In this document: positions 26,546-44,862 of the stretch, piece after piece
Numbering within the stretch: position 1 is the stretch's first letter
How the letters are laid out: every line of letters starts with the position of its first letter
Source of the DNA: Bacteroidota bacterium
Lineage (GTDB): Bacteria > Bacteroidota > Bacteroidia > JACPRZ01
NCBI GenBank assembly: GCA_016193485.1
Contig: JACPRZ010000007.1
Location: 62,001 to 126,000, forward strand
DNA: 64,000 bases
Direction: 5' to 3'
Notes under the pieces: generated by a model
Database searches by the model: none
Seen by the model: the letters and a program-made list of their open reading frames with translations, nothing else
What the model was told of the DNA's origin: nothing
Made by a program: the position numbers and the translations under genes

Positions 26546-26594
26546 ATTGAACATTGTGCATTGCTCTTTGCGCACTGCACACTGAACACTGATT
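26546..26594. repeat. 7-nt-period array immediately before nuoA
   Basis: Seven consecutive 7-nt units of the form (A/T)(T/C)TGNNC, from ATTGAAC to ACTGATT, end 3 nt before the nuoA start codon and so occupy the ribosome-binding region. Confidence 0.65.
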
Positions 26595-30078: not shown

Positions 30079-30172
30079 ATTGCGGATTTCGAATTGCGAA
30101 TTGCGGATTTGGAATTACAGAATTTCAATTCGCAATTTTGACAATCCGAAATCCGAAATATTCTTTTTCACC
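30079..30172. repeat. Inverted 7-nt arrays between nuoH and nuoI, ATTTCGG family
   Basis: On the left, six units of the type ATTGCGG, ATTTCGA, ATTGCGA run in 7-nt steps. From about 30125 the motif continues inverted (TTCGCAA, TCCGAAA twice). The whole can form a long imperfect hairpin. Same unit family as the gaps in the ribosomal operon. Confidence 0.75.
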
Positions 30173-31666: not shown

Positions 31667-31727
31667 CCCGCAGATAGCGCAGATATTCGCAGATAATTAC
31701 CAAATAATCTGTACTTATCTGCGAAAT
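31667..31727. repeat. Left palindromic 10-nt-period repeat flanking the GxxExxY gene
   Basis: Three CGCAGAT units in 9-10-nt steps from 31669, preceded by TTATTTCCCG, then an inverted arm with ATCTG and ATCTGCG ending near 31727. The copy at 32121-32199 starts with the same TTATTTCCCG and has the same build. Confidence 0.8.
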
Positions 31728-31739
31728 TGTAAAAAGGAT

Positions 31740-32117
31740 ATGACTGAAAACGAAATTTCTTATTTAATAAGAAAAGCGATATTTAAAGTGTATAATACAC
31801 TTGGCCCTGGTTTACTTGAGTCGGTATATGTCGCTGCGTTGGTTTATGAATTAAAGAAACTCGGTTTGATGGTAAAAACAGAAATACCTGTTCCTGTAAT
31901 TTACGATAATGAAAAACTGGAATTGGGTTTTAGAATTGATATGCTGGTGAACGATAAAGTTATTATTGAGGTAAAATCCATTGAACAATTAGCTGAAGTT
32001 CATCATAAAGTTGTTCTTACATATTTGAAATTAACGGGTAAAAAGTTGGCTTTACTTGTCAATTTTAATACTAGTGATATTACAAAAAGTATTTATAGAA
32101 AGGTAAATAATTTATAA
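31740..32117 (+). CDS. GxxExxY protein (PDDEXK-like fold)
   Basis: 125 residues, the usual size of this family. The naming motif is G24-x-x-E27-x-x-Y30 (GLLESVY), followed by a PDDEXK-type core with D67 in FRIDMLV and E77-x-K79 in IIEVKS. Conserved D/E/K suggests a nuclease-type active site, but no activity is established. It stands between nuoK and nuoL, where it has no expected role, and both sides carry a palindromic 10-nt-period repeat. AT-richness is higher than in the nuo genes. I infer a repeat-bounded inserted element. It probably uses the nuo transcript. Confidence 0.88.
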   Translation: MTENEISYLIRKAIFKVYNTLGPGLLESVYVAALVYELKKLGLMVKTEIPVPVIYDNEKLELGFRIDMLVNDKVIIEVKSIEQLAEVHHKVVLTYLKLTGKKLALLVNFNTSDITKSIYRKVNNL

Positions 32118-32120
32118 AAT

Positions 32121-32199
32121 TATTTCCCGATGCTACCGCTGATTTTCGCAAATAATTGCAATTAAATCTGCGTTTATCAGCGAAATCTGCGGGAAAAAA
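32121..32199. repeat. Right palindromic 10-nt-period repeat flanking the GxxExxY gene
   Basis: Starts TTATTTCCCG, passes CGCTGAT and TCGCAAAT on the left, then the inverted arm with ATCTGCG, ATCAGCG and ATCTGCGGG in 10-nt steps. Read on the opposite strand it begins CCCGCAGAT like the left copy, so each copy is itself palindromic. Confidence 0.8.
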
Positions 32200-40957: not shown

Positions 40958-42046
40958 ATGGAACCACTCAAAAACCACAACCTCACCGATGTAGCATACA
41001 CCGGTATCCTCTATGAAAAACGCCCATGCTTTGATGCAAAGGGCAAACCTGTTGAAGGATTGTATAATGCATGGATCTGGCTGAACAACCCGGCACAATT
41101 CAATTCCTACACTACCCAGATTGTCAAAGAGGTTATCCTTGCTTTGCGACAGGCATCCAACGACCGCAGCGTGGTGACGGTTGTACTTACCGCAGTGGGC
41201 GACAAGGCGTTCTGTACCGGTGGCAACACCAAGGAATATGCAGAGTATTATTCCGGTAACCCGCAGGAATACGCGCAATATATGCGGCTTTTCAATGATA
41301 TGGTTTCAACAGTCCTGATGTGCGATAAGCCGGTTATCTGCCGCGTCAACGGGATGCGCATTGCCGGTGGACAGGAAGTAGGAATGGCCTGCGATTTTAC
41401 CGTTGCCCAGGATTTCGCACGCTTCGGGCAGGCAGGTCCCAAACATGGAAGCGCTGCCGTGGGTGGAGCAACTGATTTCCTTCCCGGCTTTGTCGGTATG
41501 GAAAGAGCCATGTACTCTCTGACCCTTTGCGAACCATGGACTGCCTACCAGGCCTATATGTACGGATTGATTCTTGATGTAGTGCCTGCCCTGAAAGTGG
41601 ACGGGCAGTTTGTCCCTAACCCGATGGTTGTAACGGATAAATGGATCGATACAAAGGGAAAAATTGTTTACGGAACCATGAAGGGGGGGGAGGAATTGGC
41701 TAATACAAAAGAAATTATGTCAAAGGGAAAGATGGACCTTTCCATGTTGGATGAAGCTGTCAATCGCCTTGCGACAAAAATTCTCTATACCATGCCCAAT
41801 TGCATGACAAAATCCATCAACGAAGTGCGAAAACAGAAACTGATGCACTGGGATAAAAACAAGGAATCCAACCGCGACTGGCTGGCGCTTAACATGATGA
41901 CTGAAGCGAAAGCCGGTTTCAGGGCGTTTAATGAGGGACCAAAGGATAACAGGGAAGTGGACTTTATCAGGTTGAGGAAAATGCTCGCAGAGGGTCACGA
42001 ATGGAATGATGAATTAATCCGGGCAATTTCACCACAATTCAGGTAA
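40958..42046 (+). CDS. oah: 6-oxocyclohex-1-ene-1-carbonyl-CoA hydrolase (ring-opening)
   Basis: 362 residues, crotonase fold, the normal size of Oah/BamA and much longer than ordinary enoyl-CoA hydratases. Marks are YEKRPCFDAKGKPVEGLYNAWIWLNNPAQFNSY (in part), the oxyanion region DKAFCTGGNTKEYAEYYSGN, and RVNGMRIAGGQEVGMACDFT. Oah adds water to the double bond and then hydrolyses the ring C-C bond, giving 3-hydroxypimelyl-CoA; it is the diagnostic enzyme of anaerobic benzoyl-CoA degradation. An eight-G run at 41683 codes for Gly-Gly. A 7-nt repeat array begins inside its stop codon. Confidence 0.95.
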   Translation: MEPLKNHNLTDVAYTGILYEKRPCFDAKGKPVEGLYNAWIWLNNPAQFNSYTTQIVKEVILALRQASNDRSVVTVVLTAVGDKAFCTGGNTKEYAEYYSGNPQEYAQYMRLFNDMVSTVLMCDKPVICRVNGMRIAGGQEVGMACDFTVAQDFARFGQAGPKHGSAAVGGATDFLPGFVGMERAMYSLTLCEPWTAYQAYMYGLILDVVPALKVDGQFVPNPMVVTDKWIDTKGKIVYGTMKGGEELANTKEIMSKGKMDLSMLDEAVNRLATKILYTMPNCMTKSINEVRKQKLMHWDKNKESNRDWLALNMMTEAKAGFRAFNEGPKDNREVDFIRLRKMLAEGHEWNDELIRAISPQFR

Positions 42047-42126
42047 TCGGTAATCAGTAGCCGGTAGTCGGTAATCAGTAATCAGTAGTCAGTAATCGGT
42101 AATCAGTAACGGGTAGTTAGTAATAT
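42043..42126. repeat. Left 7-nt array (GTNNTCA), + orientation, flanking the four-helix-bundle gene
   Basis: Twelve consecutive 7-nt units, consensus GTAATCA/GTAGTCA, starting at base 42043 within the last sense codon/stop of oah and ending 21 nt before the next gene. The right array at 42542-42611 is the same consensus inverted. Confidence 0.9.
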
Positions 42127-42147
42127 TAATTTGTAATTTATATTAAT

Positions 42148-42540
42148 ATGCAATACGTAGAGAGTTTCAGGGACTTGGAAGTATATAAACTTTCAAGACA
42201 ATTAGCAAGGGAAATTTTTGAAATTTCAAAACATTTTCCAAAAGAAGAAATGTATTCTCTTACAGATCAGATACGCAGGTCATCACGGTCGGTGGGCGCT
42301 CAAATTGCAGAGGCGTGGGCAAAGAGAAATTACGAAAAACATTTTATTAATAAATTAACTGATTCGGATGGTGAACAGTTGGAGACACAACACTGGCTTG
42401 AAGTTTCACTTGATTGTTCTTATATTACAAATGAGGTTGTCGCTGATTTATTGAAAAAATATGAAACCATTGGGAAAATGTTAAGTTCAATGATGAAAAA
42501 ATCCAAATCTTTTTGCAAAAAATCTGATAAGAAATTATGA
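42148..42540 (+). CDS. Four-helix-bundle protein (S23/23S rRNA-IVP family)
   Basis: 130 residues. Family pattern: F-R-D-L-E-V-Y-K-L-S-R-Q-L-A near the N-terminus, FPKEEMYSLTDQIRRSSRSVGAQIAEAW, a middle helix with D-S-D-G-E-Q-L-E-T-Q-H-W-L, and a final helix ending in Lys-rich sequence. Such proteins are known from intervening sequences of 23S rRNA genes and as free genes in Bacteroidota; related bundles bind RNA in diversity-generating retroelements. Function here is unknown. It sits between two pathway genes and is enclosed by inverted 7-nt arrays that begin at the oah stop and one base after its own stop, so I treat gene plus arrays as one inserted element. Confidence 0.9.
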   Translation: MQYVESFRDLEVYKLSRQLAREIFEISKHFPKEEMYSLTDQIRRSSRSVGAQIAEAWAKRNYEKHFINKLTDSDGEQLETQHWLEVSLDCSYITNEVVADLLKKYETIGKMLSSMMKKSKSFCKKSDKKL

Positions 42541-42541
42541 C

Positions 42542-42611
42542 TGACCACTGAATACTGACCACTGAATACTGACCACTGAATACTGACCACTGAATATTGA
42601 CCACTGAATAC
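42542..42611. repeat. Right 7-nt array (TGANNAC), inverted relative to the left array
   Basis: Ten 7-nt units alternating TGACCAC and TGAATAC (five 14-nt tandem copies, one mismatch). Their complement is GTGGTCA/GTATTCA, matching the left array consensus GTNNTCA. It begins one base after the four-helix-bundle stop codon. Confidence 0.9.
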
Positions 42612-42624
42612 AGTATACTAATCA

Positions 42625-44862
42625 ATGTTTCATAATAACCAGATAATAGAAATCCGTGGCCACGCAAGAGGCGGACAGGGCATGGTTACTGCATTTGAAA
42701 TTCTTGCCGCCATTTTCAGTAAAGCAGGGGATTATGAAGTGCAGGCATTTCCGTTTTTCGGTGTAGAACGAACCGGGGCTCCCATCCAGGCGTTTCTCCG
42801 GATTTCAAAAAACCCCATTCAAAACAGAAGTAATATTTACAATCCGCACCTTGTAGTTCTATTTGATGAAGGACTGCTTGATCAGGTCCCTGTTTTTGAC
42901 GGACTTCATCCTGATGGAGCGGCTCTGGTAAACACTGAAAAACCGGTCAACGAAATTCCACGGCTTCCCGGTGGGTTAAAAACCCTCTTTACGGTTCCTG
43001 CTACAAGTATTTCTATTGAGAAAAAACTCGGCAGTAAAGCCCTTCCGATCGTAAATTCTGCGATGATCGGGGCGGTAATTCGCATTCTTGACGGAGATAT
43101 TTCAATAAGTAAGGAGATCATTCGCGATGAGGTTCCTGTGAAACATGAAGAAAATGCAATGGCTGCAGAACAATCCTATAATAGTTTGCAGGAACACAAT
43201 CTCACTCCTTTAAAGCAGGAACCTGCCAAAGTTACAGCCCCTGTTGTTAATTCACCGGATGAGGTCCCTTTCGCACCATACTGGTCTAAGCCGTTGTCAC
43301 TCAACAAGACCGGGAACTGGAGGGTTTTTGCACCTCAATATGTAAACCGTACCCCCCCCTGTACTCATTACTGCCCGGCCGGGACGGATGTAAGGCAGTT
43401 TGTTAAACTTACCGCTGAAAGAAAGTTCGCAGAAGCATTTGAAACCATTTATAAACATAATCCTTTTCCGGCAACATGCGGGCGTGTTTGTCCTCATTTT
43501 TGCCAGCAGAACTGCAACCGGGAGGGATTTGATGACCATGTTAATATTGGCGCCATTGAACGGTTTCTTGGTGATTTTTCTTTTGATCTTAAGAGAAAAC
43601 CGGTTCCCGTTACCCGCAAAGAGAAAATTGGTGTTGCCGGTTCCGGCCCTGCCGGGCTTACGGCTGCCATCCGCCTCCGCCAAATGGGCTTCCCGGTTAC
43701 TGTTTTTGAAGCACATTCCGCTGCGGGTGGGATGATGAGAGTTGGAATACCGGGTTTCCGCCACCCTGAAGATATCCTCGATGCCGAGATTGAAAGGATC
43801 ACCGGTGAAGGAGTTGAGTTAATCTTAAATCATAAAATAACTATCCGGGATATTGAAAATGATTTTTCAGCAGTGATTGTCGCTACCGGCCTTCATTCCG
43901 GCAGCCGGATGAATATCCCCGGTGAAGAACATGCGGTTGACGGGATCCGTTTTTTATATGAAGCAAAAATAAACCATAATAATTTTAATGTCAAGCGCGG
44001 TGAAGAAATAGCCGTTATAGGGGGGGGAAATACCGCAGTTGATGTGGCGAGAACCCTTTTGCGGCTGGGCGGGAATCCTACTATTTTTTACAGGAGAACA
44101 CGCAACGAGATGCCTGCAATACCCCATGAAGTGGATGAAGCCATAGCGGAAGGCGTGAGGGTTGAACTGCTTTCCGCACCTCTGAAAATTGATCGCAATA
44201 CCGCAGGATTGGAAATAGCCGTAACCCGCATGAAATTGGGAGATCCGGATTCTTCCGGAAGGAGGAGGCCTGTTCCGGTTGAAGGATCCGAAATAATTAT
44301 AAAAGCAGGTAAAGTAATATCTGCAATAGGACAAACGAGCGATAACCACTTTTTTTCAGGGAATCACCTGTCGGTCGATGAGGGGCGCATAGAATTCCGT
44401 TCGAAAATACCGGTATTCTGTTGCGGAGACCTTTCAGGGGGGGGAACTATCACCGAAGCGGTCGGCAGCGGCAACAGGGTTGCACGGCAGGTCAATGCCA
44501 TCCTTTACGGAATTCCTTATACGCCCGATCCGGTAAAAAATGATATGGTGATGCCCAACGAAATGAAATTTATATATTATCGTCATTCGCTTCGGCATCC
44601 TAATCCTGTAATTATCAAATCCGACTGGCATAATGATTTTTCAGAAGTCGTTCAGGGTTTGAGCGAAAAGGAGACCGTTGCTGAAGCGATCCGCTGTCTG
44701 CATTGCGGTGATTGCTACCTGTGCGGTAATTGTTTCAACTATTGTCCCGATGCGGCAATTTATCTGGAAAACGGAAATAAATTGCACATACACTATGATT
44801 ATTGCAAAGGATGTGGAGTTTGTGCATACGAGTGTCCGTGCGGGGCGATAGTAATGAAGTAG
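42625..44862 (+). CDS. Fused gamma / FAD-NAD(P)H / ferredoxin (delta) subunit of a 2-oxoacid:acceptor oxidoreductase, PadE-PadH-PadF-like
   Basis: 745 residues in three parts. Residues 1-180 are a 2-oxoacid oxidoreductase gamma domain (RGHARGGQGMVTA, F-P-F-F-G-V-E-R-T-G-A-P-I). Residues 235-660 are a GltD-type electron-transfer flavoprotein with Cys ligands C246/C250 and C285, C289, C293, C297, an FAD motif GSGPAG at 339-344 and a second nucleotide motif IGGGNTAVDVA near 463. Residues 686-745 are a two-cluster ferredoxin (C691, C694, C697, C700, C703, C707 and C727, C730, C733, C737). These three parts plus the alpha and beta genes behind equal the subunits of Azoarcus phenylglyoxylate dehydrogenase PadEFGHI, where they are separate. 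A NADP-coupled 2-oxoglutarate or pyruvate enzyme is the alternative. Confidence 0.85.
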   Translation: MFHNNQIIEIRGHARGGQGMVTAFEILAAIFSKAGDYEVQAFPFFGVERTGAPIQAFLRISKNPIQNRSNIYNPHLVVLFDEGLLDQVPVFDGLHPDGAALVNTEKPVNEIPRLPGGLKTLFTVPATSISIEKKLGSKALPIVNSAMIGAVIRILDGDISISKEIIRDEVPVKHEENAMAAEQSYNSLQEHNLTPLKQEPAKVTAPVVNSPDEVPFAPYWSKPLSLNKTGNWRVFAPQYVNRTPPCTHYCPAGTDVRQFVKLTAERKFAEAFETIYKHNPFPATCGRVCPHFCQQNCNREGFDDHVNIGAIERFLGDFSFDLKRKPVPVTRKEKIGVAGSGPAGLTAAIRLRQMGFPVTVFEAHSAAGGMMRVGIPGFRHPEDILDAEIERITGEGVELILNHKITIRDIENDFSAVIVATGLHSGSRMNIPGEEHAVDGIRFLYEAKINHNNFNVKRGEEIAVIGGGNTAVDVARTLLRLGGNPTIFYRRTRNEMPAIPHEVDEAIAEGVRVELLSAPLKIDRNTAGLEIAVTRMKLGDPDSSGRRRPVPVEGSEIIIKAGKVISAIGQTSDNHFFSGNHLSVDEGRIEFRSKIPVFCCGDLSGGGTITEAVGSGNRVARQVNAILYGIPYTPDPVKNDMVMPNEMKFIYYRHSLRHPNPVIIKSDWHNDFSEVVQGLSEKETVAEAIRCLHCGDCYLCGNCFNYCPDAAIYLENGNKLHIHYDYCKGCGVCAYECPCGAIVMK

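Follow-up and report, generated by a model that had tools for sequence, protein, structure and literature searches.

How does a small gene come to lie between two protein genes of an operon with arrays of one 7-nt word, in opposite orientations, on either side of it, and what kind of element is this? The question is raised by a locus in a 64-kb stretch of DNA (the window), where an earlier note had described a small four-helix-bundle gene bracketed in this way and had proposed a repeat-bounded single-gene element. The coordinates of the bracketing arrays and the gene were confirmed, and the locus consists of the following features:

40958..42046, + strand, upstream host gene oah, encoding 6-oxocyclohex-1-ene-1-carbonyl-CoA hydratase (TIGR03200, E 3e-176)
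42043..42126, + strand, 5' arm, 12 units of GTNNTCR (array inspection, TRF, word count and subfamily unit profile)
42148..42540, + strand, four-helix-bundle gene of the S23p / 23S rRNA IVP family, 130 aa (PF05635, TIGR02436)
42542..42611, - strand, 3' arm, 10 units, the 5' arm word on the opposite strand (TGANNAC on the + strand)
42625..44862, + strand, downstream host gene, a 2-oxoacid:ferredoxin oxidoreductase gamma / NAD(P)-binding fusion

This anatomy is directly observed. The unit counts of the earlier note (12 on the left, 10 on the right) are correct, but the exact consensus is present in fewer units than these counts imply: GTNNTCA is matched by only 5 of the 12 left units (8 of 12 for GTNNTCR, with the last three degenerate and all consecutive at 7 nt by position), and TGANNAC by 9 of the 10 right units. 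The subfamily consensus unit of the 5' arm word is C-R-G-T-R-A-T. TRF detects both arrays, with scores of 110 (left) and 137 (right). The 64-kb window contains 14 tandem pairs of the word (GTNNTCRGTNNTCR, counted on both strands) versus 0.30 expected; none of 100 shuffles reaches 14, and 13 of the 14 fall in the two arms; TGANNACTGANNAC occurs 10 times in the window versus 0.07 expected.

The left array does begin in the oah stop codon, as had been claimed, with the TAA (42044-42046) inside its first unit, and the right array starts one base past the TGA (42538-42540) of the four-helix gene; the ATG of the downstream host gene is 13 nt beyond the 3' arm. The inference that the flanking codons are intact was not quite accurate, however. 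The 5' arm overlaps the C-terminus and stop of oah, and the window OAH ends in ..ISPQFR*, whereas most relatives are a few residues longer (e.g., ..ISPQFQNANV*). Because the OAH of most relatives is slightly longer, the array has probably replaced the last oah codons, supplying the stop and a slightly altered C-terminus, although this rests on sequence comparison alone. Of 395 Bacteroidia genomes, 50 have the oah gene, which belongs to anaerobic benzoyl-CoA degradation, with identities of about 65-75%. An enoyl-CoA hydratase gene usually lies directly after it; in the window, three oxidoreductase genes intervene. In a genome of another family (G158, contig C14), a four-helix gene whose word differs (L277) lies after a second oah copy, and this is an independent insertion after oah.

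The protein encoded between the arms matches PF05635 (E 7e-34, 116.7 bits against a cut-off of 33.8) and TIGR02436 (E 2e-31, 108.4 bits against a cut-off of 24), families that go under the names 23S rRNA intervening sequence protein, S23p, and four helix bundle protein. Within Pfam, the only other match is to bAvd (PF22296, E 4e-10), and identity as Avd is not supported, with NF033474 giving 30.9 bits, below its cut-off of 80. In Pfam and TIGR profile searches the protein showed no fold known from transposases or nucleases, and a Y1 (HuH) transposase domain is absent by Pfam. The solved relatives 2rld and 2gsc have five chains each, and the S23p protein of X. campestris was reported to be a homopentamer (PMC4990558). 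The rings of these relatives are pentameric, and by analogy with 2rld and 2gsc the window protein is inferred to form a ring as well. Among 222 highly divergent four-helix proteins, residues Q41, E55 and E79 are 98-99% conserved, S48 is 94% conserved, and position 44 (R44) is basic in 92%. Because proteins that share Q41, E55 and E79 are often less than 30% identical to each other, this conservation is possibly more like that of an active or ligand site than that of a structural need; such a function is inferred and remains unproven. Residues 41, 44, 48 and 55 would share one face if they lie on one helix.

The earlier note had suggested examining homologues for inverted flanking arrays, and most of them do have such arrays. 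The genome of the window carries 10 four-helix genes, and the family survey covered 119 genes from 34 Bacteroidia genomes, with 200-nt flanks. A period of 7 nt (plus 14, and 8 in a subset) is prominent in both flanks, while most other periods are at the level of shuffled sequences. The two arms of the same element give an inverted match of at least 14 in 84% of the 119 elements, compared to 4.6% of cross pairs, 6.7% of shuffled sequences and 4.8% of random window sites; at a threshold of at least 20, the corresponding values are 46%, 0.4%, 0.3% and 0%. Only 1.0% of 575 other genes of the window genome reach at least 20, and none of the 575 combines arms of at least 16 with periodicity on both sides. 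Elements with two periodic arms have the same period in both in 141 of 146 cases (118 with 7 and 7, 23 with 8 and 8, and 5 discordant), and the median number of units per arm is about 5. Two exceptions, L028 and L209, have direct rather than inverted arms.

Each protein subfamily has its own 7-nt (or 8-nt) word. At 58-78% identity, the 80 proteins closest to that of the window are distributed over Bacteroidota, Chloroflexi, Planctomycetes, Verrucomicrobia, Desulfobacterales, KSB1, Neomarinimicrobiota, Lentisphaerae, WOR-3, Elusimicrobia and others; 70 of the 80 have inverted arms, and CRGTNNN/NNNACYG is found in nearly all of the relatives' arms. Within one genome, other four-helix subfamilies bear other words. 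The unit profile of the window subfamily is identical in both arms, and the polarity W..rcW is seen in 44 elements and reversed in 1. When arms of different elements were compared (224 elements), the frequency of matches of at least 14 was at background for proteins less than 45% identical, and was 38% at 50-60% identity, 63% at 60-70% and 76% above 70%; own arms reach this threshold in 73% of cases in the same comparison. The high-identity pairs are mostly from the window's subfamily, but the trend is also present outside it. Both the coupling of word to protein and the distribution between phyla are thus matters of observation.

Based on these and the following data, we favor the interpretation, with a probability of roughly 0.6, that the locus represents a widespread intercistronic element consisting of a gene and its cognate repeat, in which the word-array ends are bound by a protein ring that helps to copy or move the DNA. 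The ring would bind the array at both DNA ends, one unit per subunit, which would explain the short regular units and the occurrence of about five units per arm. It would then help to copy or move the array-bounded DNA into gaps at gene ends, and because the word carries stop codons, an array inserted over a gene's final codons would do no harm. Binding of the word, the role of the protein in movement and the catalytic step are all inferred. In the transcript, the arms can fold into a stem, like those of the 23S rRNA intervening sequences, and this may separate the mRNAs of neighbouring genes, an RNA effect that is also an inference.

The alternative that survives best, though we consider it unlikely, assigns the whole function to RNA: the element is an intervening sequence whose arms pair in the polycistronic mRNA, RNase III cuts the stem, and the protein binds its own transcript. 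The protein family is common to the ORF of 23S rRNA intervening sequences, and in Coxiella the intervening sequence ends in inverted repeats, is excised by RNase III and carries GACAGAT heptamers ahead of its ORF (PMC4990558). In addition, the minimum-energy fold of the window RNA contains a full arm-arm stem (z -4.7), and four-helix genes are overwhelmingly in the sense orientation relative to a flanking codirectional gene pair (158 sense, 6 antisense). However, G-U mismatches between the arms are not favoured over A-C mismatches in a sense-RNA wobble test (95 versus 148), and between facing units the variable letters match no more often than they do once unit order is shuffled (0.686 versus 0.677). 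Furthermore, the W..rcW polarity is conserved although a hairpin is possible in either order, and many arrays are solo. Because the variable letters do not pair unit by unit, each arm resembles a series of recognition sites more than it does one half of a maintained hairpin. The data suggest that two such arrays in TIR-like orientation are a better fit than a maintained stem, an inference made without binding or cutting data. The earlier suggestion that the protein targets structured repeat RNA is correspondingly weakened. An Rfam scan of the region gave no rRNA match, only sub-threshold snoRNA-like chance matches.

If the element is instead bounded by recognition sites on DNA, as we prefer, the gene itself would sometimes move, and short gene-less array pairs would do so more often, in trans. 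The four-helix genes of a single genome usually belong to separate lineages (in the window genome, no two exceed 52% identity), as has been reported for RAYTs (PMC3116915), arguing that the gene itself rarely multiplies; for the same reason, the arrays are expected to be the more mobile part, served in trans by the protein. Gene-less arrays are in fact abundant. Periods of 7, 8 and 14 are over-represented in 864 kb of the window genome, which contains 64 arrays away from any four-helix gene versus 8 four-helix genes. The earlier note had counted it as a refutation if arrays were equally frequent without any gene and in random orientation; this holds in part, because the gene-less arrays are the more numerous, but they are not independent of the elements. 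The arms of the genome's own ten elements are matched, at a threshold of at least 15, by 38 of the 64 arrays, while 20 random sets of ten foreign elements matched a mean of 12.4 and a maximum of 22. Four of the arrays lie in the window, none with an assigned strand:

26546..26592, solo 3'-arm-type array ACTGNAC / ATTGNNC just upstream of a start codon, with a word related to that of the window element
30079..30159, gene-less inverted pair ATTGCGG.. / ..CCGAAAT directly after a stop codon, with the word of four-helix element L006 of the same genome
47909..47971, gene-less inverted pair CAAGTCC / GGACTTG, with the word of four-helix element L009 of the same genome
55744..55773, solo AAGTCCC-type array, with the word of L009

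Period-7 arrays number 32 in the 864 kb of the window genome versus 1 in 376 kb from six PF05635-free genomes. This trend is not universal, because two of four sampled genomes with the gene are array-rich (3.7 and 5.0 per 100 kb) and two are array-poor (0.5 per 100 kb, with 1 array in 200 kb each).

The excess of gene-less arrays over gene copies also allows a reading in which the arrays are the real selfish units, the four-helix gene only accompanies or regulates them, and movement is due to a RAYT Y1 transposase, to a PDDEXK_3 nuclease or to host repair. Both a RAYT-like gene and inverted-arm PDDEXK_3 genes do occur in the same genome. Nevertheless, across phyla the word goes with the subfamily of the four-helix protein and the PDDEXK_3 genes bear their own, different words, and we consider this reading quite improbable.

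The preferred gene-plus-repeat element was also examined through the states of orthologous junctions, as the earlier note had advised, and empty sites were found in congeners, though not for the oah junction. At the rpoD-rpe junction, one base separates stop from start in genome G014 (empty), and the gap is filled by a full element in G095; inverted arrays without the gene are inserted in G127 and G058, and a different hairpin in G158. Filled and empty states were observed at three further orthologous junctions. None of the 30 oah loci inspected offers an empty version of the window junction, since in all of these relatives oah is followed by a gene other than the one found in the window. Four-helix copies per genome number 2, 23, 10, 10 and 14 in one genus (g15) and 8, 5, 9, 10, 5, 0 and 1 in another (g20). 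One MAG contains two element copies that share 93% identity along 524 nt; their flanks are unrelated, and the similarity ends near the arrays, although mis-binning has not been excluded for this pair. No target-site duplication was recognised in comparisons of filled and empty sites, where the flank identity (73-83%) is too low for certainty. The proposal of a repeat-bounded single-gene element is thus supported by arms at most homologues and by empty sites in congeners, but autonomous mobility is unproven, and movement by the four-helix protein itself is inferred, with no movement observed.

These site states bear on the view that the gene is a vertically inherited, non-mobile operon gene with regulatory repeats, functioning in attenuation or autoregulation. 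Some sites do recur in different families (sufB-sufC, the fad operon and rpoD-rpe), and the gene is codirectional in 84% of cases. This view nonetheless seems very improbable: the words differ at the same site, empty sites exist, copy number varies from 0 to 23 within genera, and close relatives occur in distant phyla. Finally, tandem arrays can expand by slippage, and heptamer number differs among Coxiella strains (PMC4990558), but the idea that the arrays are generic intergenic microsatellites with the gene among them by accident looks all but excluded, since slippage does not yield an inverted copy of the same word on the opposite side, a common period or a link to protein subfamily, and the idea is contradicted by the cross-pair test and by the control genes, which lack arms.

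Among known systems, the 23S rRNA intervening sequences are relatives of the gene-plus-repeat element with respect to the protein and probably also to the anatomy. Intervening sequences with an S23p ORF occur in Leptospira, Coxiella and Brucella (PMC4990558), and the likeness extends to the inverted complementary ends and the sporadic distribution. The ends of the window element are complementary and can pair into a long stem enclosing its S23p ORF, and the Coxiella heptamers lie just upstream of the ORF and vary between strains (PMC4990558). In contrast, the intervening sequences are described inside 23S rRNA, a location that defines them, and the window element lies between operon protein genes (oah and the oxidoreductase); elements of the window type also have heptamer-array arms with a subfamily-specific word, and gene-less copies in the genome. 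Because of its inverted ends and the GACAGAT heptamers before the S23p ORF, the Coxiella intervening sequence is probably the same kind of element at another site, as far as sequence features can indicate.

In its mode of operation, the element appears analogous to the RAYT (TnpA-REP)/REPIN system without being a member of it. There is one small gene per word, whose closest relatives are in other genomes and not in the same genome (PMC3116915), and gene-less inverted copies carry the gene's word. However, the four-helix protein is not Y1/HuH, and the repeats are tandem 7-8 nt units rather than 20-40 bp palindromes. Downstream of another four-helix gene of the window genome (L010; G000 contig C18:130364-131021), several copies of the arm follow one another with alternating orientations, an arrangement reminiscent of REP clusters (BIME-like). 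Unlike insertion sequences or transposons with TIRs, the window element contains no transposase of known catalytic fold. Diversity-generating retroelements encode Avd (bAvd), a homologue of the four-helix protein, but the genome has a single RVT_1 gene, which lies on contig C30, and the element is on C71. Dependence on a reverse transcriptase was rejected, because 13 of 24 genomes with a four-helix gene lack RVT_1.

Heptamer repeats have been described before. Intergenic TAACTGA repeats occur in Beggiatoaceae, Cyanobacteria and Bacteroidetes (PMC4679880), and TAACTGA is a rotation of TGATAAC, the 3'-arm word of the window element. Other 7-nt repeats are GGGAATC in Xanthomonas and GGGGA(C/T)T in Nostoc; those of Xanthomonas include about 70 inverted pairs, with 7-nt tandem units as in the window element, and no general link to mobile elements was reported for either (PMC4692102). 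The portions of these two reports that were consulted describe no link to a four-helix gene and no gene-bounding arrays. We predict that the Xanthomonas GGGAATC arrays are linked to a four-helix protein; this genus has a solved family member. In the open-licence literature, no paper was found linking four-helix genes to inverted heptamer arms, and within that limit the gene-plus-repeat element is undescribed so far.

The architecture is not confined to one family, because it is also found with PDDEXK_3 (GxxExxY) genes, which are unrelated to the four-helix protein. Element-specific inverted arms were found at 70% of 27 PDDEXK_3 loci versus 9.7% of cross pairs, with words of period 8-9 such as CACAGAGNN and CGCAGATNN. 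PF13366 has 19 matches in the window genome, and the PDDEXK_3 gene of the window (31740-32117, within the nuo operon) has inverted CGCAGATNN-type arms, the whole spanning 31668-32195. The RAYT-like gene of the window genome (G000 contig C72:29045-29701), which was judged by eye to be Y1 transposase-like, has strong inverted flanks.

A broader and more tentative proposal, to which we give slightly less than even odds, is that these loci constitute a new class of mobile gene-repeat systems, in which S23p rings with private 7-8 nt words spread inverted array pairs, gene included or not, through operon junctions in many phyla, and in which PDDEXK_3 proteins, as a second family, use the same architecture. 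If true, there would be one explanation for the heptamer arrays of Bacteroidota, Cyanobacteria, Beggiatoaceae and Xanthomonas and for the origin of 23S rRNA intervening sequences, tying both together with small operon-inserted proteins and adding a candidate gene-repeat mobile system without a known transposase. Very many genomes contain S23p/four-helix genes to which annotation assigns no function, and a private DNA word provides a handle on the recognition target.

A search of 50,697 phage records gave no match to the four-helix gene, but the gene is present in 39 plasmid records, mostly cyanobacterial. Four-helix genes on plasmids of Nostoc, Leptolyngbya and Calothrix (L328-L333) have inverted arms of the GAGCAGGG/CCCTGCTC or GGTGTAG/CTACACC type, and the design therefore extends to Cyanobacteria.
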